Of a stretch of 52,799 nt of DNA, positions 1 through 52,733 are shown one piece after another. The notes beneath the pieces were generated by a model that did not search any database, was not told the DNA's origin, and saw only the letters and a program-made list of their open reading frames with translations. A program made the position numbers and the translations under genes. Source of the DNA: a virus; IMG/VR virus record IMGVR_UViG_3300019889_000237, positions 1 to 52,799 of that record. One strand, given 5' to 3'. Every line of letters begins with the position of its first letter. Positions within the stretch are counted from its first letter, which is position 1.

Positions 1-263
1 TCGGGGTCCAGGCGCAGGAGCTGGAGCCCGGGCGCGTAGGGGATCTCCCACGCGCCGATGAGCTGCGACGCGACTGCGTCGGGTGCGCCGTTCATGATCT
101 GGGCGATGGCCCCCCGGCCGGCGGCGACCCGGCCGGTTTCGATGTCCACGTCGACGGCGCCCATGATGATCGCCTCGACGGCCTTGCGGTCGCGGGCGCG
201 CAGGTCTTCGACGTCGCGGAGCTCGACCCAGGCGCCGTCGGACTTCAGTACGTGGCGGGTCAT
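1..263 (-). CDS. Tail assembly chaperone (gpG-like), 3' part cut off by window edge
   Basis: This is the N-terminal ~87 residues of the same protein that is complete at 51712-52119, and it runs off the left edge. Its ATG at 263 overlaps the stop of the major tail protein (ATGA), the usual position for a tail chaperone in a siphophage. By hand count it differs from the right-hand copy at about 10 of 268 bases, so the two are alleles rather than identical ends. Chaperones of this class coat the tape measure during tail assembly. Confidence 0.8.
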   Translation of the reverse strand, partial: MTRHVLKSDGAWVELRDVEDLRARDRKAVEAIIMGAVDVDIETGRVAAGRGAIAQIMNGAPDAVASQLIGAWEIPYAPGLQLLRLDP

Positions 264-10606: not shown

Positions 10607-11018
10607 CGGCGCGGCCTCGTTCCGCAAGCTGCGCCTCCAACCGCTGGATCTCGGCGTCGACCGCGTCCACGGTGACGACCTCGGTACGGATGGCGAGCGG
10701 CGCGTCCAGGCCGAGCAGCTTCGAGCGGCGCTCCATGATCCTCAGGATCGAGTCGACCAGGAACGCGCTCGGCTTCTCGTCGAGCTTGCGCCGCAACGCC
10801 ACCTGCATCTCGTTGAGCGTCTCCAGCTCGACCTTGCGCAGCTCGTCGGCCGCCTCGCGCGGGATGTCGCGCAACGCCTGCATCGCCGCCGAGTGCGCGC
10901 CGCCAGCACTGGAGTAACCGGCCACGCGCGCGACCTCGGCCCAGCTGTGCCCCTGCTGGCGGGCCAGGAGCGCAGCTCGTCGCTTCTCGGCGGCGGCGAT
11001 GGTCGGAGGTCGCGACAT
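10563..11018 (-). CDS. terS: Terminase small subunit 1 (putative)
   Basis: This 151-residue protein sits directly upstream of the large terminase and overlaps it by 44 bp. Residues about 20-45 (GHSWAEVARVAGYSSAGGAHSA) form a helix-turn-helix. The middle is a long amphipathic helix (VELETLNEMQVALRRKL), as expected for the oligomerisation core of small terminases. The ATG at 11018 is preceded by GGGAGGAC. It should recognise the packaging site and load the large subunit. Confidence 0.75.
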   Translation of the reverse strand: MSRPPTIAAAEKRRAALLARQQGHSWAEVARVAGYSSAGGAHSAAMQALRDIPREAADELRKVELETLNEMQVALRRKLDEKPSAFLVDSILRIMERRSKLLGLDAPLAIRTEVVTVDAVDAEIQRLEAQLAERGRADAHRSPAGEAATSA

Positions 11019-11062
11019 GATCGTCCTCCCGTTCGGCGAACCATGGGTTCAGCTGAAGCTCG

Positions 11063-11079
11063 TTGTGGGATTTCTACAA
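11063..11079. promoter_or_regulatory. TTGT-N9-ACAA dyad, copy 1, upstream of packaging operon
   Basis: The 17-bp element begins TTGT and ends ACAA. On the minus strand its right part and flank (ATCCCACAACGAGC) match the second copy at 11219-11235. It lies 45 bp upstream of the TerS1 start, between a terminator-like hairpin and the late operon. It is likely an operator or activator site for head gene transcription; this is inferred from position and symmetry. Confidence 0.45.
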
Positions 11080-11086
11080 AGCGAGC

Positions 11087-11125
11087 GGCCCCGCGTCCTC
11101 GAACGTGTCGAGGGCAGACGGGGCC
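11087..11125 (-). terminator. Hairpin terminator between regulator and packaging operons
   Basis: The outer stem pairs 11087-11093 (GGCCCCG on the plus strand) with 11119-11125, and an inner stem pairs 11097-11101 (CCTCG) with 11109-11113. It sits in the 140-bp gap between the gene ending at 11159 and TerS1. There is no strong T-run after it on the minus strand, so termination may be partial. Confidence 0.5.
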
Positions 11126-11158
11126 TGTGCGCAGTGTTGCATGCAGGTCAGGGCCGGA

Positions 11159-11557
11159 TCAAGTCGGCCCACGCCGGCGTGGCGCGCTCCCGGACGTGGA
11201 CCCGGCATGTGGGGCTCGTTGTGGGATCTGCACAACGGACCGGGTGTCGGCGACGCGGAAGCGGCACTGGTTCGCGTTCCACTCGATCGCGCCCGAGGAC
11301 TCGGGCAGGTACACGAGCACGCCGAGGACACCGAGCTTGTCTCGCGACCAGCCGAGCACGAATGCCCATGGCAGGTCGTCGTACGAGGCTTCCAGCGGGT
11401 ACGGCTGCGGGGCAAAGTTGTCCAGCATCAGACGAGCTCCTTGTCGATCACGCTCTCCAGCCATCGTCCAACCACCGACGTAGGCCATGAACAGCTCATG
11501 TGTCGCGGTCGCGCCCTCGGCCATCGGGGTGAGGTCGATCCCGAGCGGGTTCTTCAC
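11159..11557 (-). CDS. Small hypothetical protein in regulator operon
   Basis: This 132-residue protein starts at GTG 11557 in a GTGA overlap with the preceding gene. The first ~45 residues (VKNPLGIDLTPMAEGATATH onward) are a helical segment like those seen in many short actinophage proteins. Residues 45-100 contain aromatic beta strands (YDDLPWAFVLGWSRDKLGVL). The last 30 residues are basic and low-complexity and overlap the second TTGT dyad. Function unknown. Confidence 0.55.
   Translation of the reverse strand: MKNPLGIDLTPMAEGATATHELFMAYVGGWTMAGERDRQGARLMLDNFAPQPYPLEASYDDLPWAFVLGWSRDKLGVLGVLVYLPESSGAIEWNANQCRFRVADTRSVVQIPQRAPHAGSTSGSAPRRRGPT
11219..11235. promoter_or_regulatory. TTGTG-N7-CACAA dyad, copy 2
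   Basis: This is a perfect 5-bp inverted repeat, 17 bp long, matching the copy at 11063-11079 in its conserved half and flank. It lies inside the 3' end of the upstream gene, 156 bp from the first copy, with the hairpin between them. Such a pair could bind one dimeric regulator at two sites. Confidence 0.45.
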
Positions 11558-11754
11558 GTGTCCTCTCCGAGGATGTGCGCAGCGACGCCGTCGGCTCCCC
11601 AGACCCACCCGGACGGGTGGGCCAGCACCTCGCGGGCCCGCTGCTCGAGCGCCTGCAGCCGCTCCAGCTCGGCGAGGAGCATGTTCCGCGCCTCGTCCGC
11701 CGGCGGCGGAAGGTCGCACCCCTCGAGGTGCTGGGCCGCCTCGTCCAGATTCAT
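11554..11754 (-). CDS. Short coiled-coil protein, paralogue-like to 29174-29488
   Basis: This 66-residue protein starts at ATG 11754 in an ATGA overlap with the preceding gene. The central helix (NMLLAELERLQALEQRAREV) is heptad-rich. The C-terminal block, ending in AAHILGEDT, resembles the end of the rightward-arm protein at 29174-29488 (AAGYILGETT), and both carry a RAREV motif about 20 residues before it. Two copies of the same small family thus sit in different operons. Function unknown. Confidence 0.65.
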   Translation of the reverse strand: MNLDEAAQHLEGCDLPPPADEARNMLLAELERLQALEQRAREVLAHPSGWVWGADGVAAHILGEDT

Positions 11755-12071
11755 GTCGGGTCTCCCTTGAGCCGGAGCAGGTCCCCGACGTCGTACAGCG
11801 GCCGGCCCTCGGCCGTGTGGTCGTAGCTGCGGATCGCGAGCCGGCACGCCCACGCCCGCACGGTGCCGGCCGGGATGGACAGGTAGCGCTCGGCGTCCGC
11901 GGCGCTGATCAGTATCAGGTCAGGGGCGTCGGCGAGCTCGTGCCCGCACGCCTTCACGTCGTAGCCCGCGGCGTGCCGGCGGCAGTGCCGGCGCACGGTG
12001 GCGGCCGGCCGGGCGAACAGGGCCGCGATCGCGGAGGTGTCGGCGATGCCGCGTTGGTGGTCGATTTTCAC
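11751..12071 (-). CDS. Two-HTH DNA-binding protein (excisionase/MerR-like C-terminus)
   Basis: This 106-residue protein starts at GTG 12071, overlapping the upstream stop (GTGA). Residues about 9-30 (DTSAIAALFARPAATVRRHC) form one helix-turn-helix. Residues about 56-100 (SAADAERYLSIPAGTVRAWA, then GRPLYDVGDLLRL) match the winged HTH of MerR/excisionase-type proteins. There is no integrase in the window, so a role as replication or transcription regulator is more likely than excision. Confidence 0.6.
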   Translation of the reverse strand: MKIDHQRGIADTSAIAALFARPAATVRRHCRRHAAGYDVKACGHELADAPDLILISAADAERYLSIPAGTVRAWACRLAIRSYDHTAEGRPLYDVGDLLRLKGDPT

Positions 12072-13385: not shown

Positions 13386-15740
13386 TCATCCCACCGACGC
13401 GAACGGGTCGTCGTCGCCGGCCTGAGAGACCGACGGCAGGCCTCCGTCCGGGTAGTCGCGCAGGTAGCTGTTGAGCTGTCCTCCGCGCCCGCTGGGATCC
13501 TTGCGGTGCCCCACGTAGCCATTCTCCGATAGCCACGCGAGCTGTTCCCGCAAAGCTGCGCCCTTGCCCGTCACGTTCTTTTCCACGGCAGTGCCGGACA
13601 CCTCCGACGCAATTTCCTTGAGATAGGTGATGATCCTGGTCCGGAGCATCTCGACGGCCGCGCTCGTGGTCCCGGTCCTGGTCGTCTCCGCGGGCACGTC
13701 GAAGACCACGGACACGTCTCCGTCCTCGCCTGCCGTCACGGTGACCTCAGCCCAGGTACCGGTCGCGTTGGCCTCACCGCGGACGAACCCGGGCCGGTCC
13801 TTGTCCACGGTCAGGCTCAGCGACCCGGACCTGCCGCGACCGAATGGCTCGTTGACGTCCACGTACACCGCCGCGCCGGTGATGGTCGCGCGCTTGGCCT
13901 GCGCCCCGATCCCGCCCTTGCCGCGCTTCTCCGCATCCTTCGGGACGTGGTCGATAGTCACCACCGCGGCACCGGTCAGCGACGCCGGGCGAGTGATCTT
14001 CGTGAAGAACTTGGTCGCGTCCGTGTTCGAGATCAGATCCAGCCCGTCCTGCGTCATGGCCGCGTTCACCCCGTCGAACACGATCAGCGACCACGCCCGG
14101 GCGCGCAGCACCTGGGCGTACTCGTCGTAAGCCACCGCGTGCAGCGCCTCCTCGGGGCCCACGTAGGCGAGCAGCTGCGCGGAGCGGTACATCAGCTCGT
14201 CGGGCACGCCCAGGGCGCGCAGCCGCATGATGACGGTCCCGGCGATGTCCTCGAAGTCGAGGTAGAGCACCGGGCGTCGGGCACGTAGCTCCTGCGCGAC
14301 GGCCTCCAGGGCGATCCAGGACTTGCCGGACTCGGACGGGCCGATGATCCCGTTCACCTTGCCTGCGTAGAACAGGGCGGCGCCGTCGGTGCGCGCGAGC
14401 ACGCACGGTGCCGGTTCCGGGTTCTCGCCCGAGAGCACGGCGTCCAGATCCTTCGGCCACCACGAGGTGTGCTCGTCCTCGACCGGACCGGCGTCCTCGT
14501 CCTCCGTCCCGTCCTCGTCCTCATCCGGGGACGGGGTGGGGGCGGACCCGTTCAGGCCCGGTGACCTGGTCAGGTTCGAGGGCTCGTCGTGCCGGACGTC
14601 GACGCTGCGCAGTGGCCGCAGCTCGGCCGGCTCGTCCAGGATCCCGACCGCGGTCATCGCGTCCCGGTTGTCGCCCGCGTGGTCGTAGGCCGCGATCACC
14701 TGGAGCTTCGACCAGTCCTTGCGCGCGGACAGCTCGGCCGGCGGCGAGTCGGTCCAGATGTGCAGCACGCCGCCGGTGACCTCACGTAGCCCACACCCGG
14801 GCTCGTGCGCGGTCGCCGACTTCGGTGAGGACCAGTCCCCGGGCCGGGTCCAGATCTCACACCCGCACTGGTCGGTTTTCCCCGAGGTGGTCCAGCCGTA
14901 GCGGGCCAGGATCTGATCCCAGGTGGTCACCGCGGACCAGTCCTCGATCCGGTCGTCCCCGCCCGCCACGTGCTCCCGGTGCCGGTCGATCCGCTCGGCG
15001 TGCCCGGCGATGTGCGCGTGCAGCATCGAGATCATCCAGGCCGGTGCGGGCTGGATCTCCGAGGCCATCACGTACGGGCCCTCCGCGCGCACCGAGGGCG
15101 GCACGAGCACCAGCTGGTTACGGAACATCAGCGAGGCCTTGGCCTCGTGCGCCCCGACCTTGAGCGGGGTCGAGGTGCACGCCTCGGCGAAGTCGACCTC
15201 GTCCGGGAGCAGGAACCAGAAGTGCCCGCCGTCCTTGTGCGACCAGACCTCGTTGCCCTCGGAGTCCTCGCCGCGCCGCTTGCCGGGGCTACGCACGGTG
15301 GGCGCGGCGTGGACCAGCTCGGGGCGCTCCTCCATCTGTGCCCAGAGCGCCGCGAACGACTCCCGCTCGGCGGTGGTGTCGGCGTCCACGACCAGTAGCC
15401 GGGACGCGCCGACCTCGAGACCGATGTTCAGGTCCGGGTTCGTGGCCACGAGCCGCTTGAACACCCGGTCCGCCTCGACCGGGTCGGTGATGGTGTGGTT
15501 GCGCCCGCACGGGTGCTGCCGGCGCTCCCAGTGCTGGACCCCGGCCTCCCGGGCGGCGGCGGCGGCCTTGCGGTCGGCGGTGGTGCGCTGCCGATCGGTG
15601 AGCGTGCACGCCGGTTCCTTGGACAGGGGCTTGACCGCGAGCACCGCGTAGCCCTCCCGGCACGCCGCGCGGGCGATGCCGACTAGGTCGCTGTTCTCCC
15701 GGGCGCCGCCGAACAGCGACACGAACTCGTGCGAGGCCAT
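13386..15740 (-). CDS. Primase-polymerase fused to RecA-fold replicative helicase
   Basis: This 784-residue protein starts at ATG 15740, overlapping the DNA polymerase stop (ATGA). The N-terminal ~230 residues are a bifunctional prim-pol domain: NIGLEVGASRLLVVDADT covers 105-122 with the metal-binding DAD at 119-121, followed by a GGHFWF strand at 171-176. An acidic linker (about 400-425) leads to a RecA/DnaB-like ATPase with Walker A GPSESGKS at 467-474 and a later SLIVFDG Walker B. The C-terminus (about 690-784) is a winged-helix-like module (LREQLAWLSENGYVGHRKD). It should prime and unwind DNA at the fork, working with the polymerase next door. Confidence 0.85.
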   Translation of the reverse strand: MASHEFVSLFGGARENSDLVGIARAACREGYAVLAVKPLSKEPACTLTDRQRTTADRKAAAAAREAGVQHWERRQHPCGRNHTITDPVEADRVFKRLVATNPDLNIGLEVGASRLLVVDADTTAERESFAALWAQMEERPELVHAAPTVRSPGKRRGEDSEGNEVWSHKDGGHFWFLLPDEVDFAEACTSTPLKVGAHEAKASLMFRNQLVLVPPSVRAEGPYVMASEIQPAPAWMISMLHAHIAGHAERIDRHREHVAGGDDRIEDWSAVTTWDQILARYGWTTSGKTDQCGCEIWTRPGDWSSPKSATAHEPGCGLREVTGGVLHIWTDSPPAELSARKDWSKLQVIAAYDHAGDNRDAMTAVGILDEPAELRPLRSVDVRHDEPSNLTRSPGLNGSAPTPSPDEDEDGTEDEDAGPVEDEHTSWWPKDLDAVLSGENPEPAPCVLARTDGAALFYAGKVNGIIGPSESGKSWIALEAVAQELRARRPVLYLDFEDIAGTVIMRLRALGVPDELMYRSAQLLAYVGPEEALHAVAYDEYAQVLRARAWSLIVFDGVNAAMTQDGLDLISNTDATKFFTKITRPASLTGAAVVTIDHVPKDAEKRGKGGIGAQAKRATITGAAVYVDVNEPFGRGRSGSLSLTVDKDRPGFVRGEANATGTWAEVTVTAGEDGDVSVVFDVPAETTRTGTTSAAVEMLRTRIITYLKEIASEVSGTAVEKNVTGKGAALREQLAWLSENGYVGHRKDPSGRGGQLNSYLRDYPDGGLPSVSQAGDDDPFASVG

Positions 15741-17533
15741 CACGCCGCGTCCCAACGTGCGCCGAGCTCGGCCCGGTCCACCCGGATGACCGGGACCCGT
15801 CCGGCGTGCTCTATCAACCGCTGCGGTGGCTTGCGCATGATCTCGACGAACTCGTCGGCCACCTCGGTGGACACCACCAGTTCGTCGTGCACGGCGAGGT
15901 AGACCCGGTCGGCGATCCCGGCGTCGTCGGCGTCGACCAGGGTCTCGGCCATCACGTCGTAGTTGCTGCCCTGCGCGACGTAGTTCGGGCCCTTGTAGCC
16001 GAACTCCGGATCGACGTCGATGATCCGGCCGGACAGCGTCCAGGTCTTGCCGGTCTCCTCCGACCACACCGCGGCCCACTTGGTGAACCGGTCGGTCATC
16101 GGCATCGCGCGCGTCACCAGCGCGTCCAGGGCCTTCGCCTCGTCGATGTCGATGCCCAGGCCGGTGGACAACGAGCGCAGGCCCTGGCCGTACAGCTTGG
16201 CCAGCACGATGACCTTGGCCCGCTTGTAGGCCACTCCGGCCACCTTCGAGACCACGTCGTAGAACTTCTCGCCGGACTCGTAGGCCTCGATCAGCGTCAT
16301 GTCGCCTGCCATGTTCGCGATCAGCACCGGCTCGATGGACGACCAGTCGATGGAGGTCAGGGTGTCGCCCTCGTCGGCCAGCAGGGCCTGGCGGGCGCCG
16401 GGGGTGAACTGTTGGAGAGCGGGGTTCGAGTAGCTCATCCGGCCGGTGCGGGCCTTGAGGATGTTCACCTGGGGGTGGATCCGGCCGTCGGTGCGGGCGG
16501 CGACGAGGCGGGCGTCCTCCAGGTAGGCGAACAGCCGCCGGTGCTCGTCGTGGGTCCGGAACGCGCGCACCGCCGGGTGGTCGACGGTGTCCAGGTTCGA
16601 CTTGGCCGTCGAGTACTTCCCGGTGGCGGTGCGCGGGTAGTCGTCGGGGAAGGCGTCGGCGTCCTCGAGCGCGGCGGCCAGCTGGTTGCGGTTGGTGGCC
16701 TCGGCGACACCGAACCCGGCCAGCTGGTCGCCGAGCTCGTTCATCTGCATCCGCAGCTGGTCCTGTTCACCGGTGACCCGGTCGTCGTCGATGGCGATGC
16801 CGAGCGCGGAGCGGCGCAGCATGATCCGGTTGACCCGCTGTTCGCGTTCCATCAGGTACTCGGCCTGCACCGCGTCGGCGCCGTAGCGGCCGAAGGGGTG
16901 CTCGGTGAGCTGGCGGCGGGCGGCGTCCCGGACCGGCTCCAGCACCATCGAGGTGAGCACGCCGTCCCACCCGGCGTACATCGCGTAGACCGGGTCGGCG
17001 TACTGGGCGCGCTCGAAGACCTGCGACTTGGTCAGCCGGTTGATCTTTCCCCAGTCCGCGAGGTTGTCCTTGGTCATGGAGCGCATTCGCCCGGACAGGT
17101 ACCGGCGTTCCAGGTCGCCGAGGCTGTGCCGGTCCATCTCGCCGGTGCTCGCCATCCGGGAATAGATGAGCGTGTCCGAGATCTTGGCGATGTCCTCGAT
17201 GCGCATGATCCCGGCGGTGACCAGCGGTGGCACGTCGAACGCGCTGTTCTGGAAGACCAGCTCGCGGGCCACTGACAGCGCCTCGCGGGCGGCGGCGCGG
17301 TGCCGGGCGTCGGATGCGTCCAGGACGCAGGACCGCAGCTCGGTGGCGATGATGATGACCTTGACCTGGAACGCCTTCTCGGCCAGCCCGGCGGTCTCGA
17401 TGTCCACGGCGACGCGGGTGGCGGCGCGCGCCATCCGGACGACCTCGCCGGCCGCCTGGTCGCCGATCGCGTAGGAACGCATGGTGGGGTCGGTGTCGGA
17501 GTGCCGGCCGTAGAACGAGATCTGGTCGCTCAC
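15740..17533 (-). CDS. polA: DNA polymerase I-like (family A)
   Basis: This 597-residue protein starts at GTG 17533 (GTGA overlap). Residues about 40-190 are a 3'-5' exonuclease domain with the DIE motif at 44-46 (VAVDIETAGL). The polymerase domain has motif A with Asp396 in TSIDWSSIEP, motif B/O-helix KRAKVIVLAKLYGQG at 437-451, and motif C VHDELVV with Asp550. The length is usual for compact phage family A polymerases without a 5' nuclease. It replicates the phage genome together with the prim-pol/helicase encoded immediately downstream. Confidence 0.93.
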   Translation of the reverse strand: MSDQISFYGRHSDTDPTMRSYAIGDQAAGEVVRMARAATRVAVDIETAGLAEKAFQVKVIIIATELRSCVLDASDARHRAAAREALSVARELVFQNSAFDVPPLVTAGIMRIEDIAKISDTLIYSRMASTGEMDRHSLGDLERRYLSGRMRSMTKDNLADWGKINRLTKSQVFERAQYADPVYAMYAGWDGVLTSMVLEPVRDAARRQLTEHPFGRYGADAVQAEYLMEREQRVNRIMLRRSALGIAIDDDRVTGEQDQLRMQMNELGDQLAGFGVAEATNRNQLAAALEDADAFPDDYPRTATGKYSTAKSNLDTVDHPAVRAFRTHDEHRRLFAYLEDARLVAARTDGRIHPQVNILKARTGRMSYSNPALQQFTPGARQALLADEGDTLTSIDWSSIEPVLIANMAGDMTLIEAYESGEKFYDVVSKVAGVAYKRAKVIVLAKLYGQGLRSLSTGLGIDIDEAKALDALVTRAMPMTDRFTKWAAVWSEETGKTWTLSGRIIDVDPEFGYKGPNYVAQGSNYDVMAETLVDADDAGIADRVYLAVHDELVVSTEVADEFVEIMRKPPQRLIEHAGRVPVIRVDRAELGARWDAA

Positions 17534-19338: not shown

Positions 19339-20499
19339 ATGGCCCTCGTCCGCGCCGACCAGACGCCCTCGAACCCGGTCAAGGCCCCGACCGCCGACGT
19401 GCCCAACTCGATCTTTAGGGATCAGTGGAAGAGACCGCTCGTGGTAACTCCCAGCGGGTCAGTGGAGGCCTACACCCGGGCATCGACTATCGGGTCGGTC
19501 CTGGAGGACCAGAACGGGATCGGCATCTGGAAGATGCGCCAGGTCGCGTGGGCGCTCGGGCACTCCCGCCCGCTGCGACTGCGCGCCGCCTCGATCCCGG
19601 ACACCGCGAGTTCGGAGTCCAAGTCTCTGCTCAAGGAGATCACCAACGACGCGTTGGACTTCGCGGACTCCCGGGCGGCAGCCGACGTCGGCACCGCGCT
19701 GCACGCGCTCACCGAGCGGGTCGACCTCGGCCGGCCGATCCCGGACCTGGAGGACGACCAGGCCGCGATCGACGCCTACATCGAGGCGACCCGGGGCAAG
19801 TTCGTCTTCCACGGCACCGAACAGTTCGTGGTGTGCGACCAGTTCCAGGTCGCCGGCACGTTCGACCGGATCGCGGCCCCGCTCGGCGACATGACCACCC
19901 AGGACGGCACCCTGATCCCGGCCGGGTCCCGGCTGGTGTGGGACCTCAAGACGTCCGGCTCGTCCAAGTTCTTCGGGATCAAGTTCGCCGCCCAGCTGGC
20001 CGCCTACGCCAACGGCGTGCGCTACCGGGGCTGGAACACCATCGGCGACGACGTCGACCCGCGCACCCTGTCGCCGGCCGAGAAGCTCGCCGCCTCGCGC
20101 GGCGAGCGACTGGAGTGGCCGGACGGGATCGCCCCGCGCACCGACTGGGCGCTGATCCTGCACGTCCCCCAGGGCGGGCCGGAGCGCAAGGGCGACCCGC
20201 CCGCGCAGCTGTATTGGGTGGACCTGACCCGCGGCCTGGAACTACTGGCGCTGGCCACCCTGATCCAGGGCTGGCGGGCCCGCAAGGACCTGGTCGTGAA
20301 GGCCGACCCGCCGCGGGTGCCGATGGCCGAGGGCCTGTCGGGGGCCGGGCTCTCCTCGCTGATCGCCGCCGTGCCGGCCGGGCCGGACATGCGCGCACAG
20401 CTTCTCCGCCTGTTCGATCAGCACACATCCACCTGGACGGACCTGCACACACATGAGGCCAAGCGGCGCCTGAACGCGCCACGGCTGGGGCGGGCATGA
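19339..20499 (+). CDS. PD-(D/E)XK nuclease (RecB/Cas4-like exonuclease)
   Basis: This 386-residue protein starts at ATG 19339, one base after the previous stop. The nuclease core shows GTALH at 118-122, Glu161 in GTEQFVV, Asp176 in AGTFDR, and the catalytic DLK (Asp202, Lys204) in VWDLKTS, followed by QLAAYANG. This order matches RecB-type nucleases used for recombination or DNA end processing. It lies beside SSB-like, methyltransferase and endonuclease VII genes, a DNA-processing operon. The C-terminus overlaps the methyltransferase start by 4 bp. Confidence 0.85.
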   Translation: MALVRADQTPSNPVKAPTADVPNSIFRDQWKRPLVVTPSGSVEAYTRASTIGSVLEDQNGIGIWKMRQVAWALGHSRPLRLRAASIPDTASSESKSLLKEITNDALDFADSRAAADVGTALHALTERVDLGRPIPDLEDDQAAIDAYIEATRGKFVFHGTEQFVVCDQFQVAGTFDRIAAPLGDMTTQDGTLIPAGSRLVWDLKTSGSSKFFGIKFAAQLAAYANGVRYRGWNTIGDDVDPRTLSPAEKLAASRGERLEWPDGIAPRTDWALILHVPQGGPERKGDPPAQLYWVDLTRGLELLALATLIQGWRARKDLVVKADPPRVPMAEGLSGAGLSSLIAAVPAGPDMRAQLLRLFDQHTSTWTDLHTHEAKRRLNAPRLGRA

Positions 20500-22256
20500 A
20501 CCGCTCCGTCGACCTGCGCTTCGGCGACTGCCTGGCCGTCCTGCGCGAGCTCTCCGACGAGTCCGTGCACGCGGTCATCTGCGACCCGCCTTACGGCCTG
20601 GCCGACGTGCGCCCCGAGCGGGTCGTCACCGCGCTGACCGCGTGGGCGAACGGCGACCGCGACCACGTCCCGGACGGCAAGGGATTCATGGGCCGGGAGT
20701 GGGACGCGTTCGTTCCCCCGCCCGCTGTGTGGGACGAGTGCTTGCGCGTGCTCAAGCCGGGCGGGCACCTGCTCGCGTTCGCCGGCTCCCGCACCGCCGA
20801 CCTGATGGGCCTGTCCGTGCGCATGGCCGGGTTCGAGATCCGGGACACGATCATGTGGGTCTACGGCTCGGGATTTCCGAAGGGGCAGAACGTCGGCAAG
20901 GCCGCCAAGGTCGCAGAGCTGGAGGGGTGGAACACCGCGCTCAAGCCGGCCCAGGAGCCGATCATCGTCGCCCGGAAGCCGCTCGCGGGCACGGTCGCGG
21001 CCAACGTACTAGCATGGGGCTGTGGCGCTATCAACATCAACGCAACCCGGGTCGGCCCGAACGGCGGCAGCCGCGAAAGCCTCGGCCGAGAAGCGGCGCC
21101 GCGAGGGTGTCGTGTTCATGCCGTGCGCGATGTGCGGCAAGGAGATGCGCCGCTGGCGTTCGCAGGTGCAGCGAGCGAAGTTGCCGATGACCTGCAGTCA
21201 GAAGTGCAGGGGCGACCAGCTGCGCGGGCAACGGAACCCGCGGTGGGGCGGCGGCGCCTGGACGGAGAGTCGGTCGGGCTACCGGAAGCTGGCAGTCCGC
21301 CACCTGTCGGCCAAGGACCTGTCGCTGATCCCGGAACCACATCCGCGCGAGGTGTTCGAGCACCGCATGGTGATGGCGAGGAAGGTCGGTCGGCCGCTCC
21401 TGCCGACGGAGATGGTCCATCACATCAACGGGGACAAGGCGGACAACCGTCCGGAGAACCTGCACTTGACGGACTGGGAGGGGCACTCCCGGGAGCATCG
21501 GCTGATCGAGCGCGAGCTGACGATGTTGCGCTGGCAGAACATGGTCCTGGCGACTGCACTTGCGGCACTGATGCAGCGTCCGGAGTAGCGCCCGCCGGCC
21601 GCTGGCCCGCGAACGTCGTCCTCGTCCACGTCGACACCTGCGAGGACGGGGGCGCGTGCGGGGACTGCCCGGTCGCCGAGCTGGACCGGCAGAGTGGGAT
21701 CACGAAGACCGGCGACAAGCCGTTCAACCGGAACACCGCGCTCGGCGTGATGAACGACGACGCGTGGACTGCGCAGCACCAGACCGCCCAGCGTCATCCC
21801 GGCGAGGGCGGCGCGTCCCGGTTCTTCCCGACCTTCCGCTACCAGGCCAAGGCTCCGGCCGCCGAGCGCCCGAAGATCGACGGCAAGGGCTGGCCCACCG
21901 TCAAGCCGCAGGGCCTTATGCGGTGGCTGGTCCGGCTCGTCACCCCGCCCGGCGGGCTGGTGCTGGACCCGTTCGCCGGGACCGGCTCGACACTGCAGGC
22001 CGCCCGCGATGAGGGGTTCGACGCGATCGGGATCGAGCGGGATGCGTTCGCGTACCAGCTCGCATGCCAGCGGCTCGGGCTGACCGAGCTCGTGCTCGTC
22101 GAGCCCGAGCCCGTCGACCCGATCCTGACCTCGATCAGCGCGGCGGCCACGTACGACGACCTGGTAGCGCTCTGGCGTGAACATCAGGACGGGTGGTCGG
22201 ACGTGCACAGCGCGGCGGCCAAGGACCGTCGAGCGGCGATCGATGTGGTGGCATGA
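20496..22256 (+). CDS. DNA methyltransferase (N4/N6 type) with an internal HNH-gene insertion
   Basis: This open frame gives 586 residues. The N-terminal third has DPPY at 30-33, the catalytic motif of amino-methyltransferases, then [15 protein letters not shown] and an FGSGFPK-like YGSGFPKG stretch. The C-terminal third has PNVVL-type sequence ([12 protein letters not shown]) and the AdoMet motif [14 protein letters not shown]. Between them, about residues 185-365 (roughly 21050-21590) read as low-complexity sequence. This is the out-of-frame shadow of an HNH gene encoded in another frame. Without the insert the enzyme would be about 400 residues, normal for the family. The frame stays open across the insert, so a full-length bulged enzyme could be made, or the insert may be removed. 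Confidence 0.82.
21022..21588 (+). CDS. HNH homing endonuclease nested in the methyltransferase gene
   Basis: In a different frame from the surrounding methyltransferase lies an HNH protein of up to 188 residues. It could start at GTG 21022 or, more plausibly, at ATG 21118 (MPCAMCGK). It has a zinc knuckle (CAMCGKEM ... CSQKC) and the typical NPRWGGG link. The HNH core follows: [19 protein letters not shown], then [18 protein letters not shown]. Such free-standing homing nucleases cut allele copies lacking the insert and spread by repair. Its stop at 21588 is just before methyltransferase sequence resumes (GRWPANV). Confidence 0.85.
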
Positions 22257-30738: not shown

Positions 30739-31053
30739 ATGGCCGACGACGACCGGCGCACGTTCGAGTTCAGCGAAACCGACCTGGTCCGCTGGGCGTG
30801 TTTCGTCGGGTTCTTCGCCAGCACGCTCTCGCTGATGGTCGCGTTGTCGGCCGGTGGCGGCTGGCTCGCCCCCGGCCTGGGCGTGCTGATCTTCGGGGTC
30901 CCGTCGCTGAAGATGTACACCGCCCGGGTCGAGCAGGAGCGGACGGACAAGGCCCAGGCCACGTGGCGGGCGGCCCGCGAGGGCACCGGTCCCGGCTGGT
31001 CCCTGACCGACGACGACGGCGACCCGTCTCAGCCCCCGAGGATGAACAAGTGA
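30739..31053 (+). CDS. Membrane protein with two hydrophobic segments
   Basis: This 104-residue protein starts at ATG 30739. Segments CFVGFFASTLSLMVALSAGG and LAPGLGVLIFGVPSLK could span the membrane. A charged tail with WRAAREGTGPGWSLTDDDGD follows. It overlaps the next start by one base. Function unknown. Confidence 0.6.
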   Translation: MADDDRRTFEFSETDLVRWACFVGFFASTLSLMVALSAGGGWLAPGLGVLIFGVPSLKMYTARVEQERTDKAQATWRAAREGTGPGWSLTDDDGDPSQPPRMNK

Positions 31054-31596: not shown

Positions 31597-32205
31597 GTGA
31601 GCGACGAACACAGCGTGTCAAGCAACCGTCAGAGAGGGCCGATTCCGGTGACTGTCAGCGAGGATGGCCGCGTCAGCCGGCCGCGCTACAGCCCAGAGAA
31701 GCGGGCCAAGCTCGGTGACGAGGCCTGGAACCTGAAGGACCAGGGCCGGTCCCTGCGCACGATCTCGAAGATGTTCACCGACCGGGGCGACCAGATCAGC
31801 CACGCGACCGTGGCCGAAATCATCAGCGAGGCGCAGGACCGGGCCAGGTTCCTGGACTTCGTCGGCCCGGCTCAGTCCCGGGCCGCGTCCATCGGCCGGC
31901 TCGACCAGGCCCTGGAGCGCCAGCTCGCGACCGTCACCGAGCTGGCCGCCGGCGCGCAGACCGGCGAGCTGGACTTCGAGAAGGGGCACACCGCGCTGGA
32001 CAAGGCGATGGCCCGCTACGTCCAGCTGGAGACGCTCTGGGTGAAGGTGACCGGTGCGGCGATGGCGACCCGGACCCAGATCGAGGGCCCGAACGGGGAG
32101 CCGATCGGACCGGACGTGGCGTTCCTGGCCGCGCTCACCCAGTCGGTCGACGCGCACGCACGCAAGACCAAGAGCATGGAGGAGAACGATGGACTCGACG
32201 GATAG
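31597..32205 (+). CDS. Second terminase small subunit-like protein
   Basis: This protein has up to 202 residues from GTG 31597. A GTG at 31648 behind AGAGAGGG is an equally good start and would remove 17 residues. Residues about 32-75 hold a helix-turn-helix (KRAKLGDEAWNLKDQGRSLR, then TISKMFTDRGDQISHATVAE). Then comes a long helical core (RLDQALERQLATVTELAAGA) like small terminase oligomerisation regions. It lies two genes upstream of the second large terminase, which supports the assignment. Confidence 0.55.
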   Translation: MSDEHSVSSNRQRGPIPVTVSEDGRVSRPRYSPEKRAKLGDEAWNLKDQGRSLRTISKMFTDRGDQISHATVAEIISEAQDRARFLDFVGPAQSRAASIGRLDQALERQLATVTELAAGAQTGELDFEKGHTALDKAMARYVQLETLWVKVTGAAMATRTQIEGPNGEPIGPDVAFLAALTQSVDAHARKTKSMEENDGLDG

Positions 32206-32911
32206 CCCGAGAAACTGGGAAGCGCTGGGCACAGAAGTACGACGCCGTCGCGGCCTACTGCACTTGCGACAGTCCGACATGGAGGCGCGCGGCGGACCGA
32301 GCGCAGGGACCATGCGCAACATCGAGCAGGCGTCGCGGACGAGCTACGCCCCGCGGACCTTCGTGCAGCTGGAGACCGCGCTCCAGTTCGGTGACGGCGT
32401 CGTGGAGAAGATCCTCGACGGCACGGCGACGCGGAGCGAGATCGACGAGGTCGTGCCGCGCGGCACCGTGACTGGGGAGAACTGGCAGGCGCTAGCTGCG
32501 GCCGTGAAAGCGCGTAGAGAACTGCTACGACTGCCGCAACAGCTCATCGGCCACGACGGTCCGGGCGAGATGACGATGCGGAAGATCGAGCGAGCGGAGA
32601 CGACCGCGATACGCGACAAGACAAAGACCCAGCTCGAACGCGCCCTTCGGATGCGCACCGGCTTGGTAGACAGGATCCTCGACGGCACGGCGACGCGGAG
32701 CGAGATCGACGAGGTCGTGCCGCGCGGCACGGCCGATGAGAACTGGCAGGACGCGGAGAGGCTCGTGACAATGGCAGGACTGCTGGCCCATGTGGACAAG
32801 GCCGAGTCGTTCATCGTCGATGCCATCGACCGCGGCGAGGTAGACCCGCTCGCGGGCTCCCGCATGATCCTCCGGTTCGCCTCGTTCCGCGCGCGCCTGC
32901 TCGGATACTGA
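32189..32911 (+). CDS. Tandemly duplicated XRE-like DNA-binding protein
   Basis: This 240-residue protein starts at ATG 32189. It contains two consecutive ~85-residue units. Each begins with NW(E/Q)AL, holds an HTH-like segment ending in (N/K)IE(Q/R)A, and ends in an identical ILDGTATRSEIDEVVPRGT block. The second block's DNA is a perfect 56-bp repeat. A unique helical C-terminus (ERLVTMAGLLAHVDKAESFI) follows. Two HTH domains in one chain can bind a palindrome without dimerising. It sits inside the second terminase set, so it may control that cassette. Confidence 0.65.
   Translation: MDSTDSPRNWEALGTEVRRRRGLLHLRQSDMEARGGPSAGTMRNIEQASRTSYAPRTFVQLETALQFGDGVVEKILDGTATRSEIDEVVPRGTVTGENWQALAAAVKARRELLRLPQQLIGHDGPGEMTMRKIERAETTAIRDKTKTQLERALRMRTGLVDRILDGTATRSEIDEVVPRGTADENWQDAERLVTMAGLLAHVDKAESFIVDAIDRGEVDPLAGSRMILRFASFRARLLGY
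32411..32466 (+). repeat. 56-bp direct repeat, copy 1
   Basis: This is a perfect 56-base repeat of 32675-32730, 264 bp apart. Both copies are in frame inside the duplicated XRE-like gene and encode the same ILDGTATRSEIDEVVPRG end. Exact identity while the rest of the units diverged suggests gene conversion or a recent event. Confidence 0.85.
32675..32730 (+). repeat. 56-bp direct repeat, copy 2
   Basis: This is the second perfect copy of 32411-32466. Recombination between the copies would delete one 264-bp domain unit and keep the reading frame (88 codons). Confidence 0.85.
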
Positions 32912-32914
32912 CCG

Positions 32915-33268
32915 ATGCCTCGCCGACTGCTCGATGACCTGCGCTCGGGCCAGCTGCTCACCTGGAACGTGACCCGCGGGAAGTGCCGATACGGGCCGAA
33001 CGAGCAGTCCGTGCGCCAGGTCGGCGACCAGTGGCGGGGCGAGAGCTCGAACTCGTTCGACTGCGACTACGCACCGCAGGACATGTGCTTGGTCTGCGCC
33101 GGGCGCGGGTGGACCGCACTGTCGGTGGCCGAGACCGAGACCGCCCAGTACGACGAGGACGTCGCCGGTGGCCGCCGCCGGTGCCAGCCGTGCCGGGGCT
33201 CGGGCTACGTCCCGGGTGCGCACTGGCCGTGGCGGCACCCGCACCCAGGCCCGGTACGGAGGGGATGA
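32915..33268 (+). CDS. DnaJ-type zinc protein in the second terminase set
   Basis: This 117-residue protein starts at ATG 32915. It has CLVCAGRGW at about 58-66 and CQPCRGSGYVPG at about 90-101, two CxxCxGxG modules as in the DnaJ zinc domain and in the mini-protein at 18077-18178. The two modules are 23 residues apart and would fold together. The N-terminus (SGQLLTWNVTRGKCRYGPNE) is unique. Function unknown. Confidence 0.65.
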   Translation: MPRRLLDDLRSGQLLTWNVTRGKCRYGPNEQSVRQVGDQWRGESSNSFDCDYAPQDMCLVCAGRGWTALSVAETETAQYDEDVAGGRRRCQPCRGSGYVPGAHWPWRHPHPGPVRRG

Positions 33269-33480
33269 CGATGACGTTCACCTGGTGGCTGATCCCGATC
33301 GTCGTGCTCGGGCTCGCCCTGATCGTGGCCCCGTTCATCGGCGCGGCCTGGGCGCGGGACTGGCGGCCGACGCACTGCGGACGCTGCGGCCGGGAGCTGA
33401 TCGGGTCGCCGCCGATGCACACGCTCACCGACCGGATGCACTGCCGGTGGCTGGCCGACTCGCAGGGAGACCGGCTGTGA
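33265..33480 (+). CDS. Single-span membrane protein with zinc knuckle
   Basis: This 71-residue protein starts at ATG 33265 (ATGA overlap). A transmembrane segment (WWLIPIVVLGLALIVAPFIG, 7-26) is followed by CGRCGREL and a later HC near the end, a possible zinc knuckle. It precedes the second large terminase with a GTGA overlap, so the two are co-translated. Function unknown. Confidence 0.6.
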   Translation: MTMTFTWWLIPIVVLGLALIVAPFIGAAWARDWRPTHCGRCGRELIGSPPMHTLTDRMHCRWLADSQGDRL

Positions 33481-35036
33481 CGCTCTCCCTGGTCCCGCCG
33501 CCGCCGTGCCCGGACATCCGGCCGCCGACCGGGGCGTGGTTCCCCTGGTTCGCGAACGAGACCGCGCCGCTGGCTCACTCGGGCATGCGGACCTCGTCGG
33601 AGTTCCGCCGCCGGTGGACCAAGGGGAGTCCTCTGCTGTTCGCGCTGGTGTACTTCCCACATCACCTCAAGCTCCAGGGCTTGAACCCGCCCATCGTCAC
33701 GTTCAACCAGCTGCACCTCGGGCTGTGCCGGGCGTCGAAGCGCTGGGTCCAGCCCAAGCGCTGGCGTGAGGCCTGGATCGCGCCGCGGGGGATCGGGAAG
33801 ACCTCGTGGGCGTTCCTGATCCTGCCGCTCTGGGCCCTCGCGCACGGGCACCGGAACTACTTCATGGCCTTCAGCGACACCACGGACATGGCCAACAACC
33901 AGCTGGCGAACCTGCGGATGGAGCTGGACCCGAACAGCGGCAACGCCTTGCTGCTCCAGGACTACCCGTCGCTGCGTCAGCGTCGGGTGCGCGGCGGGTC
34001 GAACACGAAGTCGATCGTCGTGGCGAACGGCGGCACGATCCGGGCCAACGGCCTGTCGGAGAACACGCTCGGCGCGAAGTCCGGGGCCGACCGGCCGGAC
34101 CTGTTGGTGTTCGACGACATCGAGCCGTTGGAGTCGACGATGTCGGACAACGAGCGGCGCAAGCGGATCGAGGCCATCACCACGAAGGCGCTGCCGATGG
34201 GCGCCGACCACGCGGCGTCCATCATCCTGGGTACGACGACGTCCTACGACTCGGTCATCGACCAGATCGCCCAGCACGCCCGTGGCCGCAAGCACCACGC
34301 CTGGGTGGCGAACTCGGGCATCACGCCGCGCGTCTTCCCGGCGGTGCAGGTGGACCCGCTCACCGGCGAGGAGCGCTCGATCTGGCCGGAGCGCTGGCCA
34401 CTGACCGAGACGCACCTCGGCCAGGAGCTGCGCCGCACGCCCGAGGGCGACGTACCGCCGGAGTTCGAGAAGAACTACCTGCTCGACCCGTCCCCGTACG
34501 GCACCGAGGCCGGGTCGTTCTGGCGGCCCGAGATGTTCAAGCGCCGCACGTCCCGCTCGTTCGGGGGCGTGTTCGAGCACGCGATGTACATCGACGTGGC
34601 GACGACCTCGCACGCGAAGTCCGACCGGACCGCGATCGTCATCGTCGGCCGGGACCCGGCCCGGCGGCACGCGGTCGTGGAGTACGCGCAGGCGTACCGG
34701 ATCCCCGCGGAGGAGCTGCGCCAGCGGATCCACCAGCTGTGCGCGCGCCAGCCCACGTTGCGCACGGTCGTCGTGGAGACCAACCAGGGCGGCGACTTGT
34801 GGCGGCAGATGCTCTCGCCGCTGCCGGCCGGGGTGCGGTTGATGACCGAGCACGTGTCCAACTCGAAGCAGGACCGGTTTGAGCAGGCGTTGCAGTGGTA
34901 CATGACCGGCCGCGTCTTCCACGCCATCGAGCACGTCGAGCTGGAACGCGAGATGGTGATGTTCCCGAGCAAGGCCGTGAACGACGATCTTCCCGATGCC
35001 GCCTGCGGAGCGTTACGTTGGGCGTTCGATAAGTAA
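33477..35036 (+). CDS. terL: Second, apparently intact terminase large subunit
   Basis: This 519-residue protein starts at GTG 33477, overlapping the previous stop. The ATPase has Walker A APRGIGKTS at 102-110 and Walker B DLLVFDDIE at 208-216. The nuclease part has Asp373 (MYIDVATTSHAKSDRTAI), Glu434 (VVVETNQGG) and Asp504/Asp507 (NDDLPDAACG). It shares little with terminase 1 at 9113-10606 beyond these motifs, so it is from another TerL branch and is not a duplicate. It lies in the rightward arm far from portal and capsid, next to a TerS-like protein. It could be a replacement, a decoy or the motor of a co-resident element; nothing shows which. Confidence 0.9.
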   Translation: MTLSLVPPPPCPDIRPPTGAWFPWFANETAPLAHSGMRTSSEFRRRWTKGSPLLFALVYFPHHLKLQGLNPPIVTFNQLHLGLCRASKRWVQPKRWREAWIAPRGIGKTSWAFLILPLWALAHGHRNYFMAFSDTTDMANNQLANLRMELDPNSGNALLLQDYPSLRQRRVRGGSNTKSIVVANGGTIRANGLSENTLGAKSGADRPDLLVFDDIEPLESTMSDNERRKRIEAITTKALPMGADHAASIILGTTTSYDSVIDQIAQHARGRKHHAWVANSGITPRVFPAVQVDPLTGEERSIWPERWPLTETHLGQELRRTPEGDVPPEFEKNYLLDPSPYGTEAGSFWRPEMFKRRTSRSFGGVFEHAMYIDVATTSHAKSDRTAIVIVGRDPARRHAVVEYAQAYRIPAEELRQRIHQLCARQPTLRTVVVETNQGGDLWRQMLSPLPAGVRLMTEHVSNSKQDRFEQALQWYMTGRVFHAIEHVELEREMVMFPSKAVNDDLPDAACGALRWAFDK

Positions 35037-35084: not shown

Positions 35085-35279
35085 ATGAACATGAACCACG
35101 CACTGATGCTCGAGGTCGTCCGCACGCTGCGGAACTTCACCCCGATCGCGAACATCGACAAGATGCTCGACGACCACGCCGTCGACGCGTCCGGGCACTG
35201 TCCGCTGTGTCGATCGCGCGGGTGCACGCTCTACGCCGCCGCCCGGCAGGCCCGGCACGTCCTTCGGGCCGCCCGGTAA
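35085..35279 (+). CDS. Small Cys-containing protein
   Basis: This 64-residue protein starts at ATG 35085, with a second ATG at 35091, behind CGAGAGGAC. Helical N-terminus (LMLEVVRTLRNFTPIANIDK), then GHCPLCRSRGC, which could hold zinc. It opens a new unit after the terminase. Function unknown. Confidence 0.6.
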   Translation: MNMNHALMLEVVRTLRNFTPIANIDKMLDDHAVDASGHCPLCRSRGCTLYAAARQARHVLRAAR

Positions 35280-38139: not shown

Positions 38140-38348
38140 GGCCCGCTCCCCCGCGGTGCGACCTCTCGGCGGGGGAGCGCGATCTCACGGGAGCGCTGGA
38201 TCGGGATGCGTTGCATCAGCCGGTGCGCCCGGTCCTGCGAACGTCGGACCTCAGCCTCGCGCCGCTCGATCCGGTGGTCGTGGTGCACGGCGTAGGGCAA
38301 CAGGGCGGCGAACACCAGCCACCGCCGCATGGCTTCACAGTCGTGCAC
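38127..38348 (-). CDS. Small protein with short hydrophobic segment
   Basis: This 73-residue protein starts at GTG 38348, overlapping the upstream gene by 14 bp. A hydrophobic stretch (MRRWLVFAALLPYAVHH, about 7-23) could insert in a membrane. A basic helix follows (RIERREAEVRRSQDRAHRLM). Function unknown. Confidence 0.5.
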   Translation of the reverse strand: MHDCEAMRRWLVFAALLPYAVHHDHRIERREAEVRRSQDRAHRLMQRIPIQRSREIALPRREVAPRGSGPWHG

Positions 38349-38487
38349 GCAACCACCTCCGGAGCTGGACCCACCACGGTGGGACGTAGCGCGGGCACTC
38401 GCAGACCAGGCACGGCCCGTGGTGGAACAGGTGTGCGTCGCGCCGGTGATGGCACGACACGCAGCGCCAGCCCCAGCGCACGTTCAT
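38335..38487 (-). CDS. Zinc-binding mini-protein beside sortase
   Basis: This 50-residue protein starts at ATG 38487 (ATGA overlap with sortase). CVSCHHRRDAHLFHHGPC, then CECP, gives two zinc-like clusters. Three tryptophans lie near the C-terminus. Function unknown. Confidence 0.55.
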   Translation of the reverse strand: MNVRWGWRCVSCHHRRDAHLFHHGPCLVCECPRYVPPWWVQLRRWLRARL

Positions 38488-39086
38488 GACGCCAGGTCAG
38501 CCCAGACGATCTCGTTGGAGACGTAGTGCCCGGACTGGCGGTCGAACTCGCCGCCGCAGGTGATCAGCCGCAGCGTCGGTGTCTCGGTCTTGAGGTAAAC
38601 GTCCTCGGTCGGGAATGCGGCCTTCGGGAACGAGGCGACCGCGCTGACCACGAACCGCAGCCGTGACTCGTCCTTGCGGTCGATCAGGATCTCGTCGCCG
38701 GGCACCAGCTCGCCGAGGCGCGCGAAGATGCCGGGGAAGCCCTTGCGGCCGTCCGGCCCGATGCCGTCGACGTGCCCAGCGATGACGGCCGGACCGTTCT
38801 CGCCCGGCTGGTACTCGTCCCCGTCGAACGCCGGGTCCCGCCCGGCGTACCAGCCCGCAAGTAGTGGCTGGTCGACCGGCGGCGGGATCAGCTCGTTGTT
38901 CTCGTCGATGGTCAGCGGGATCAGGTTCGACTCGGCCCCGATCTTCGGGATGATGATCGCGCTGGGGTCGGGCGTCGGGATCTCGTCGACCACGACCGGC
39001 GGCGGCTCACGCGGCGGGTCAGCGACGAACTCGGTACCGCACCCCGCGAGGAGCGCGGCACCGAGCATCAGGGCGGTCAGTCTCAC
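38484..39086 (-). CDS. Lipoprotein sortase (class F-like transpeptidase)
   Basis: This 200-residue protein starts at ATG 39086 (overlap with the next gene). It has a lipoprotein signal with lipobox LLAGC (Cys16), then a Pro-rich stalk. The sortase beta-barrel holds His105 (VIAGHVDG), Cys177 (LITCGGEFD) and Arg183 or nearby (FDRQSGHY), the order of class F sortases. Sortases join proteins with a sorting motif to the cell wall or to each other. No LPXTG-like C-terminus is obvious in this window, so its substrate is unclear. Confidence 0.85.
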   Translation of the reverse strand: MRLTALMLGAALLAGCGTEFVADPPREPPPVVVDEIPTPDPSAIIIPKIGAESNLIPLTIDENNELIPPPVDQPLLAGWYAGRDPAFDGDEYQPGENGPAVIAGHVDGIGPDGRKGFPGIFARLGELVPGDEILIDRKDESRLRFVVSAVASFPKAAFPTEDVYLKTETPTLRLITCGGEFDRQSGHYVSNEIVWADLAS

Positions 39087-40075: not shown

Positions 40076-40811
40076 CGAGCAACCCTCCGTCGGGGTCGGG
40101 CGGGATCGGCTCGCCGGTGGACGTGACGCAGCCGAGGCCGGTCTCGCCGCTGGCGAACTCGACCGTCTGGAGCGTGCTGCCGTCCGGGCAGGTTGGTCCG
40201 GGATCGCCCTGCTCGCCTTCCGGTCCTTGCTCGCCCTGCGGCCCCATCGGTCCGGCCGGGCCGGGGATCGACTCGCCCGGCTGCCCGGGCTGGCCATCGA
40301 CGCCGGCCGGCCCAGCGCTGCCATCGCTCCCGGGCTGGCCGTCCGCGCCCGGCTGGCCCTGCGGTCCCATCGGGCCGGGGACCGTGGAGTCCGCGCCCGG
40401 CTGGCCGTCCGCGCCCGGCTCTCCCGGGTCGCCCTTCGGCCCAACGATCGACTCGCCGGCCGGCCCGCGCTCGCCGGCTGGGCCGGGGATCGGAGCGCTC
40501 TGCGCCTCGGCCCCGCGCTGGCAGAGGTTCTGACCCGCGGGCGTCTGGACGACGTCGCCGCGTGTGCACGCGGCGGTCACGGACTGGCCGAGATCCTGGT
40601 ACTGCTGGGCCGTGGTGCCGAGTTGGTCCTCGACGCTGCCGGCGCTCTGGGTGAGCCACACGCCGAATCCCACGAGCAACAGACCGATGACCACGATGAT
40701 CGCGATCCACCAGCGGGACGCCGGACGCTCGTCGTCCTTGCGGTGCATGCCATCGACCAGCGCCGGGTCAGGGGGTGGCGCGATGGCTAGCCCGTTCCGG
40801 TGCTGGCCCAT
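40068..40811 (-). CDS. Membrane-anchored collagen-like protein
   Basis: This 247-residue protein starts at ATG 40811. Residues about 33-54 are a transmembrane anchor ([20 protein letters not shown]). A helical stalk follows ([16 protein letters not shown]). Residues about 107-205 are Gly-X-Y repeats with many prolines ([20 protein letters not shown] and so on), giving a collagen-like triple helix. The C-terminal ~40 residues have two cysteines ([21 protein letters not shown]), probably a trimer cap. A host-surface trimer is the likely form. Confidence 0.85.
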
Positions 40812-41061
40812 CCTCGTCCTCGTCCTTCTCCAGGATCTCAGGTCGCTCGGGAACGCGCAGTCCGCGTTGGGCGAGTTCGGTCTCCAGGGTGAAGATGTGC
40901 GCGACGGCGGCGACGAACTTCCGTTGCAGCTCGCGGTACCCGCGCCGCACCGATCGGGAGTCCTCGGAGACCCTCCTCGATCTGGTGGCCAGCACGGCGG
41001 CGAGCCCGGCGAGAAGCCCGGTCAGCCCCGTAAAGACAGCCGAGATCACCTCGACGGACAT
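40768..41061 (-). CDS. Membrane protein with coiled coil
   Basis: This 97-residue protein starts at ATG 41061. An N-terminal membrane segment (VISAVFTGLTGLLAGLAAVL, 5-24) is followed by a charged helix (RRGYRELQRKFVAAVAHIFT, then LETELAQRGL). Proteins of this shape often separate fibre and lysis genes in actinophages. It overlaps the collagen-like gene by 44 bp. Function unknown. Confidence 0.65.
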   Translation of the reverse strand: MSVEVISAVFTGLTGLLAGLAAVLATRSRRVSEDSRSVRRGYRELQRKFVAAVAHIFTLETELAQRGLRVPERPEILEKDEDEDGPAPERASHRATP

Positions 41062-52119: not shown

Positions 52120-52168
52120 CAGTAGATCGTTCCTGGGCGCATAGCAGCAGCTCCTTGTCAGTACGTGG

Positions 52169-52174
52169 TATAAT
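52169..52174 (+). promoter_or_regulatory. TATAAT -10 element of HNH gene
   Basis: A perfect TATAAT lies 7 bases before the HNH ATG at 52182, with no ribosome-binding site between. The transcript would be nearly leaderless. The local sequence is less GC-rich than its surroundings. No strong -35 is visible. Confidence 0.55.
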
Positions 52175-52181
52175 TGCCGTT

Positions 52182-52733
52182 ATGGGGAAACGTGGGCCGA
52201 AGCCCATACCTGCGGCGGAGCGCTTCTGGCCGAAGGTCGACAAGAACGGACCAGTGCCGGACTACGCCCCCGAGCTGGGGCGTTGCTGGGTCTGGACCGA
52301 GTACCTCAACTCCGCCGGGTACGCGCGGTTTATGCCCACGAGCAGCCGGGACCCGAACCGCTACACCGTGCAGGCACACCGGTTCGCATACGAGCAGGTC
52401 AAAGGCCCGATCCCGGAAGGACTCGTCCTTGACCACCTGTGCCGGGTCCCGCGGTGCGTCAACCCCAACCATCTGGAGCCGGTCACTGAATCGGTGAACG
52501 TCCGGCGCGGGATCGCGCCAGCAGCGAGATGGGCCGCCCGCACCCATTGCGACACGGGGCACGAGTACACGCCGGAGAACACCTACCGCACTAAGGCTGG
52601 GGCGCGGGTCTGCAAGACCTGCCGCCGCGATCGCAAGCGACTGGACCGCAGCACGCCCGAGGGCCGCGCCACATACAACGTCTACATGCAGGACTACTAC
52701 CAGCGGAAACTCAAGCCGGAACGCTCGCGCTAG
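52182..52733 (+). CDS. HNH homing endonuclease inserted between chaperone and tail gene
   Basis: This 183-residue protein starts at ATG 52182. It has a basic N-terminus (KRGPKPIPAAERFWPKVD), an HNH core (LVLDHLCRVPRCVNPNHLEP, then VTESVNVRRG), and a zinc end (THCDTGHEYTPENTY, then CKTCRRDRKR). It is on the opposite strand from the structural genes and converges on the major tail gene, whose stop it overlaps by three bases. The left copy of this locus lacks it, so it is probably a mobile homing gene. Confidence 0.9.
   Translation: MGKRGPKPIPAAERFWPKVDKNGPVPDYAPELGRCWVWTEYLNSAGYARFMPTSSRDPNRYTVQAHRFAYEQVKGPIPEGLVLDHLCRVPRCVNPNHLEPVTESVNVRRGIAPAARWAARTHCDTGHEYTPENTYRTKAGARVCKTCRRDRKRLDRSTPEGRATYNVYMQDYYQRKLKPERSR

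Follow-up and report, generated by a model that had tools for sequence, protein, structure and literature searches.

A phage is usually assumed to have one terminase, and the gene for the large terminase, TerL, often serves as a marker when phages are classified. The architecture described for the small terminase, TerS, consists of an N-terminal HTH, a helical hairpin core and a C-terminal moiety (PMC9611059). For phage D6E, it was proposed that TerL is assembled on the portal by way of its C-terminal arm (PMC5727402). TerS-based packaging interference is known from phage satellites of the SaPI/PICI type (PMC10690885), and two TerL annotations in one phage have been reported for Xanthomonas XaC1/XbC2 (PMC11273794) and phiPDS1 (PMC10773633). 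When we looked for two or second large terminases in 5.39 million open papers, the hits read dealt with tandem TerLs, with split TerLs or with something unrelated to which the same words were applied, and absence there is no proof of novelty.

Two terminase loci in one genome

In the stretch of DNA analysed here (the window, 52,799 bases, 70% G+C), the initial annotation described two complete large terminases with intact ATPase and nuclease motifs, TerL1 and TerL2. Their coordinates were right (Table 1). Likeness between the two was said to be confined to these motifs; indeed, comparison of TerL2 with the TerL1 set by BLASTP gave chance-level stretches only. We also confirmed that a single portal, protease and capsid set lies near TerL1. 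No second portal was found in the window or within reach of TerL2, and no portal, scaffold or capsid genes of satellite type lie beside TerL2. In relatives devoid of TerL2, TerL1 adjoins the capsid genes as well. TerL2 is on the strand opposite to TerL1 and has its own TerS-like gene, TerS2, as had been noted; strand and gene content suggest that this side is the early arm. The TerL2 frame, intact over 519 aa, is open from 33168, and the start retained in Table 1 is backed by alignment with a related genome, G001.

Table 1. Coordinates of the features discussed (window, unless another genome is named)
Feature	Position	Strand	Basis or remark
Tail protein	263-1351	-	phrog_290
Major capsid protein (MCP) candidate	3377-5068	-	position and conservation; phrog_13692, without named function
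Head maturation protease	5080-6327	-	phrog_80, E 7e-23
Portal fused to Mu-F domain	6320-9100	-	phrog_2662, E 2.5e-91; sole portal found
TerL1, large terminase, presumed virion motor	9113-10606	-	phrog_2, E 2e-31; adjoins portal
TerS1 candidate	10563-11018	-	HTH, phrog_645; directly upstream of TerL1
DNA polymerase and primase/helicase	13386-17533	-	
DNA methyltransferase	20496-22256	+	586-aa frame; phrog_67
Small protein with two hydrophobic segments (two-helix membrane protein)	30739-31053	+	homologues in same order in G001, G049, G050, G052
TerS2, small-terminase-like partner	31648-32205	+	predicted fold, profile matches; open frame from 31597, start probably at 31648
Protein with tandem XRE-like HTH repeats	32189-32911	+	weak HTH matches
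Cys-rich (CxxC) protein	32915-33268	+	in G001 and G049 only
TerL2, second large terminase, ATPase and RNaseH-like nuclease	33477-35036	+	phrog_38, E 7.8e-62
Small Cys-containing protein	35085-35279	+	homologues in G001 and G049
Class F sortase	38484-39086	-	NF033748, E 1.2e-43, below curated cut-off; tail/lysis region
Homing-endonuclease-like gene	52155-52733	+	PADLOC HEase, E 6e-5; between two tail genes
TerS2 of G052	38336-38893		

The catalytic residues of TerL2 were then compared with those of the orphans, that is, phrog_38 terminases with no portal downstream. Residues R104, G107 and K108 of Walker A, D213, D214 and E216 of Walker B, the coupling threonine T253 and the nuclease D-E-D (D373, E434, D507) were identical in 6/6 orphans aligned, and the same residues occur in 137/137 other phrog_38 TerLs. 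As no motif is broken among the six aligned orphans, we rejected the idea that TerL2 is a decayed copy; it is very probably an active enzyme. Its fold matched those of T4 gp17, HK97 TerL and Sf6 TerL by Foldseek, and a sequence search against solved structures gave no useful match.

TerS2 was modelled with AlphaFold2 (pLDDT 66.6). The model has helices at 33-88, 93-152 and 174-198, which are predicted to form an HTH, a helical hairpin and a C-terminal helix, and would thus have the three parts described for TerS. A Foldseek search with it returned the TerS of Sf6 and G20C at E above 1, none being significant. The TerS2 profile recovers genes upstream of other TerLs, and TerL2 of G088 is directly preceded by a gene with a match to the small-terminase family phrog_7067 (E 1e-4). 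TerS2 is 79% identical in G001. In G052 a first candidate (40491-40985) was rejected in favour of the gene listed in Table 1. The alignments and searches thus show that the predicted active-site residues of TerL2 and a TerS-type, putatively DNA-binding partner are kept, and that a portal of its own is absent.

Several other genes of the window deserve mention. The class F sortase, an unusual gene for a phage to carry, has homologues in the corresponding position of G001, G007 and G049. The phrog_290 tail protein, 90% identical overall in G001, contains a conserved glycine/lysine-rich stretch of ~30 residues. The homing-endonuclease-like gene has homologues in G048 and G050 and is absent from this place in G001. 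The DNA polymerase and primase/helicase are largely replaced relative to G001 (~34% over part of one gene), with syntenic flanks. In the methyltransferase, the catalytic halves lie far apart and the phrog_67 match spans a long insert; the frame may hold an insertion.

Orphan and portal-linked terminases of the phrog_38 family

Single-protein scans recovered one TerL2 relative and no TerL1 relatives, and alignment-based scans were needed for the rest. In this way, the search for the same pair that had been suggested at the outset returned nine IMG/VR genomes in which an orphan phrog_38 TerL2 coexists with a TerL1 of another family, which counts for an accessory role. TerL1 belongs to phrog_2 in the window, G001 and G062, and to phrog_9 in G049, G050, G052, G083, G086 and G087; dual-terminase phages are known here from uncultured genomes alone. 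In G083, G086 and G087, the phrog_9 TerL1 is located elsewhere than TerL2, and no portal was found within 10 kb of TerL2. Two more genomes, G085 and G088, have an orphan TerL2 but no second TerL of phrog_2 or phrog_9, and no head genes were located on these contigs.

G001 (IMGVR_UViG_3300037439_000206) is a complete genome of 50,193 bases with a 127-bp end repeat. It is syntenic with the window over nearly the full length, the two being circularly permuted to each other, and its TerL2 and TerL1 are 74% and 56% identical to those of the window. Between these genomes, TerL2 has diverged much as the portal and the MCP have and less than TerL1, which counts for the accessory reading; dN/dS values are relative only, since the G+C content at third positions reaches about 90% or more. 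In G049 (70 kb) and G050 (61 kb), whose TerL2s are about 63-64% and 42% identical to that of the window, TerS2-TerL2 lies at the same spot, the plus-arm end facing the tail/lysis genes, and the head is entirely unlike that of the window (TerL1 phrog_9, portal phrog_104, MCP phrog_283). The head of G052 is yet another variant (TerL1 phrog_9, portal phrog_104, MCP phrog_29). In G062 (TerL1 phrog_2, portal phrog_64), TerS-TerL2 lies between the portal and capsid genes; this place inside the head module counts against the accessory reading.

The cassette core consists of the membrane protein, TerS2 and TerL2, always in that order, and just these three genes are common to the window, G001, G049, G050 and G052. 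Among 289 loci searched, the membrane protein had no match at E below 0.01 outside these five genomes. The last scan gave weak matches near the orphan TerL2s of G083 (E 7e-4) and G088 (E 1e-3). The XRE-like repeat protein has no homologue in the G001 cassette.

The initial annotation held that absence of TerL2 from related complete genomes would speak against it. This was found in part: a sister genome, G007, has the virion module of the window with another early arm and without TerL2, but the complete G001 has the gene. The case of G007 counts for the accessory reading. Relatives of TerL1 occur on 42 IMG/VR contigs longer than 15 kb, among them G007, and no phrog_38 TerL accompanies them (0/42), single absences weighing little because many of these contigs are partial. 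These comparisons show that TerL2 has been inherited together with the end of the putative early arm, independently of the head genes. Since the same extra set is found in at least nine genomes with unrelated heads, it appears therefore to be a kept accessory machine and not an accident.

About 140 other phrog_38 TerLs have a portal just downstream and the orphans have none, which again counts for this reading. In the first scans, 137 loci were portal-linked, and no portal was present downstream in the window, G001, G049, G050, G052, G062 and one contig cut at its end. The last scan added six portal-linked loci and six without portal (one partial), and a scan of genome contigs gave three phrog_38 loci only, 3/3 portal-linked. 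A maximum-likelihood tree with 43 rows has one branch (100/97) that parts the 11 orphans from the 32 portal-linked TerLs; 0/500 shuffles were as low for this split, which counts for the accessory reading, and earlier trees agree. With a very distant outgroup, the portal-linked TerLs form a clade (98/99) and the orphans a poorly supported basal grade, so that the portal-free state may be either derived or ancestral. Some orphan branches are long, which, like the uncertain root, counts against the accessory reading. The TerLs of satellites fall among the portal-linked rows. Two TerLs of the loci examined, at 10001-11944 of a Nocardia locus (L121) and at 712-2511 of the satellite MulchRoom (L203), are unusually long (684 and 634 aa); their insert could be an intein.

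The residues that follow the last catalytic Asp motif number 12-21 in orphans, 12 in the window, and 23-40 in the 137 portal-linked TerLs. This shorter C-terminal arm counts for the accessory reading, the narrow gap (21 versus 23) against it. Across 120 portal-linked genomes, all 6903 pairs whose TerLs were at least 30% identical also had detectable portal similarity. The window and G049, with TerL2s 64% identical, have portals without detectable similarity, which counts for this reading. Several dual genomes have portals of phrog_104, and docking of TerL2 there is conceivable because this family also serves portal-linked phrog_38 phages.

Possible roles of the second terminase

On the best reading, TerL2 is an accessory terminase of ancient origin that can recognise DNA, cut it and travel along it. 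We give a probability of roughly 60% to TerS2-TerL2 having such an accessory role, distinct from the motor that fills the virion; TerL2 is probably not the main motor. We rejected the possibility that TerL2 is the sole motor and TerL1 is dying, since TerL1 adjoins the portal in 6/6 genomes with both mapped and is the sole TerL in G007. In the proposed mechanism, TerS2, which the two-helix protein encoded upstream may keep close to the membrane, would choose the DNA site, and TerL2, loaded at this site, would cut the DNA and move along it without docking on the phage's own portal. The likeliest purpose, and the least certain step, would be an action in trans on DNA other than the substrate of TerL1, by cutting the DNA of rival phages or resident elements or by preventing its packaging. 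Foreign DNA is favoured as the target because of elimination and position; that TerL2 acts mainly on it is our leading guess, a tentative one, and the lack of any PADLOC defence match for TerL2, TerS2, the membrane protein and four neighbour genes counts against it. It is possible, if doubtful, that these genomes reveal an undescribed class in which a complete TerS2-TerL2 with a dedicated membrane protein, free of capsid and portal, recognises and processes or destroys the DNA of competitor phages or mobile elements during infection.

TerS2-TerL2 could instead be a second packaging motor for the same head. It would then dock on the one portal available, either in certain conditions or to package a different substrate, be it the phage's genome, a plasmid or a satellite. 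All motor residues and a TerS are kept, the phrog_104 portal of G049, G050 and G052 is of the same family as that of the portal-linked G051, and both TerLs of G062 are near head genes. We nevertheless consider it unlikely, as TerL2 does not co-vary with the portal type, its C-terminal arm is short and the same head exists without it in G007. The pair might also cut or resolve replicating phage DNA ahead of packaging by TerL1, which would suit an intact nuclease with a TerS partner in an arm with DNA-metabolism genes. This is somewhat less likely still, given that replication modules differ among dual genomes (polymerase/primase of the window versus G001) while the cassette stays, and that same-head relatives manage without TerL2.

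Besides interference with the packaging of other phages, the initial annotation had offered a replacement in progress, a moron or a satellite-derived module. A replacement, or the decaying leftover of a former head module, would agree with the usual place of phrog_38 terminases in head modules, but frames and catalytic residues are intact, divergence is like that of the portal and the pairing persists in nine genomes, whose TerL1s come from two families unrelated to each other, so that we regard this origin as very remote. The same holds for a module derived from satellites of the MiniFlayer/MulchRoom or capsid-forming PICI type: the satellite TerLs are also phrog_38 (33-35% identity), but a clade of them with the core four TerL2s was rejected (p-AU 1e-4), and satellite portal, scaffold and capsid genes are missing beside TerL2. 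The term moron fits loosely, except that TerL2 is part of a cassette inherited together with the end of the early arm. As the window is an uncultured contig, a chimeric assembly of two phages was also considered; its probability is negligible, as the independent G001 has the same arrangement throughout, both terminases included, and the locus is retained in G049 and G050, where the head is a different one.

Relation to known systems

The genomes compared here show a conserved second terminase, to all appearance catalytically intact, uncoupled from portals, and we infer that it acts at chosen DNA sites, as a translocase/nuclease operating apart from a capsid of its own. Such a lineage suggests that the motor can be kept for something besides filling the phage's own head, and the orphan TerL2 would be a direct test case for a packaging motor that works, or serves as a weapon, when no capsid is attached. 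Two TerLs would be read as two phages, which would mislead contamination checks and taxonomy based on TerL.

The portal-linked phrog_38 TerLs of Microbacterium phages Isperia, Wyvern and OscarSo and of Streptomyces phages Rooney, Zuko and KimJongPhill belong to the family of TerL2, are 31-35% identical to it and have the same catalytic residues. They adjoin a portal and have a longer C-terminal tail, whereas TerL2 has no portal and accompanies a second TerL of another family. The Streptomyces satellites MiniFlayer and MulchRoom (PMC10690885) likewise have a phrog_38 TerL with a TerS upstream, but they possess their own portal and capsid. SaPI/PICI interference resembles the present case in that an extra terminase part is unmatched to the resident head and may act on the packaging of another phage. 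In the window, however, a whole TerS and TerL are involved, in a phage and not in a satellite, and interference is hypothetical. Finally, the two annotations in XaC1/XbC2 and phiPDS1 correspond to adjacent tandem genes or to the two domains of one TerL split, whereas the window carries two unrelated complete motors.
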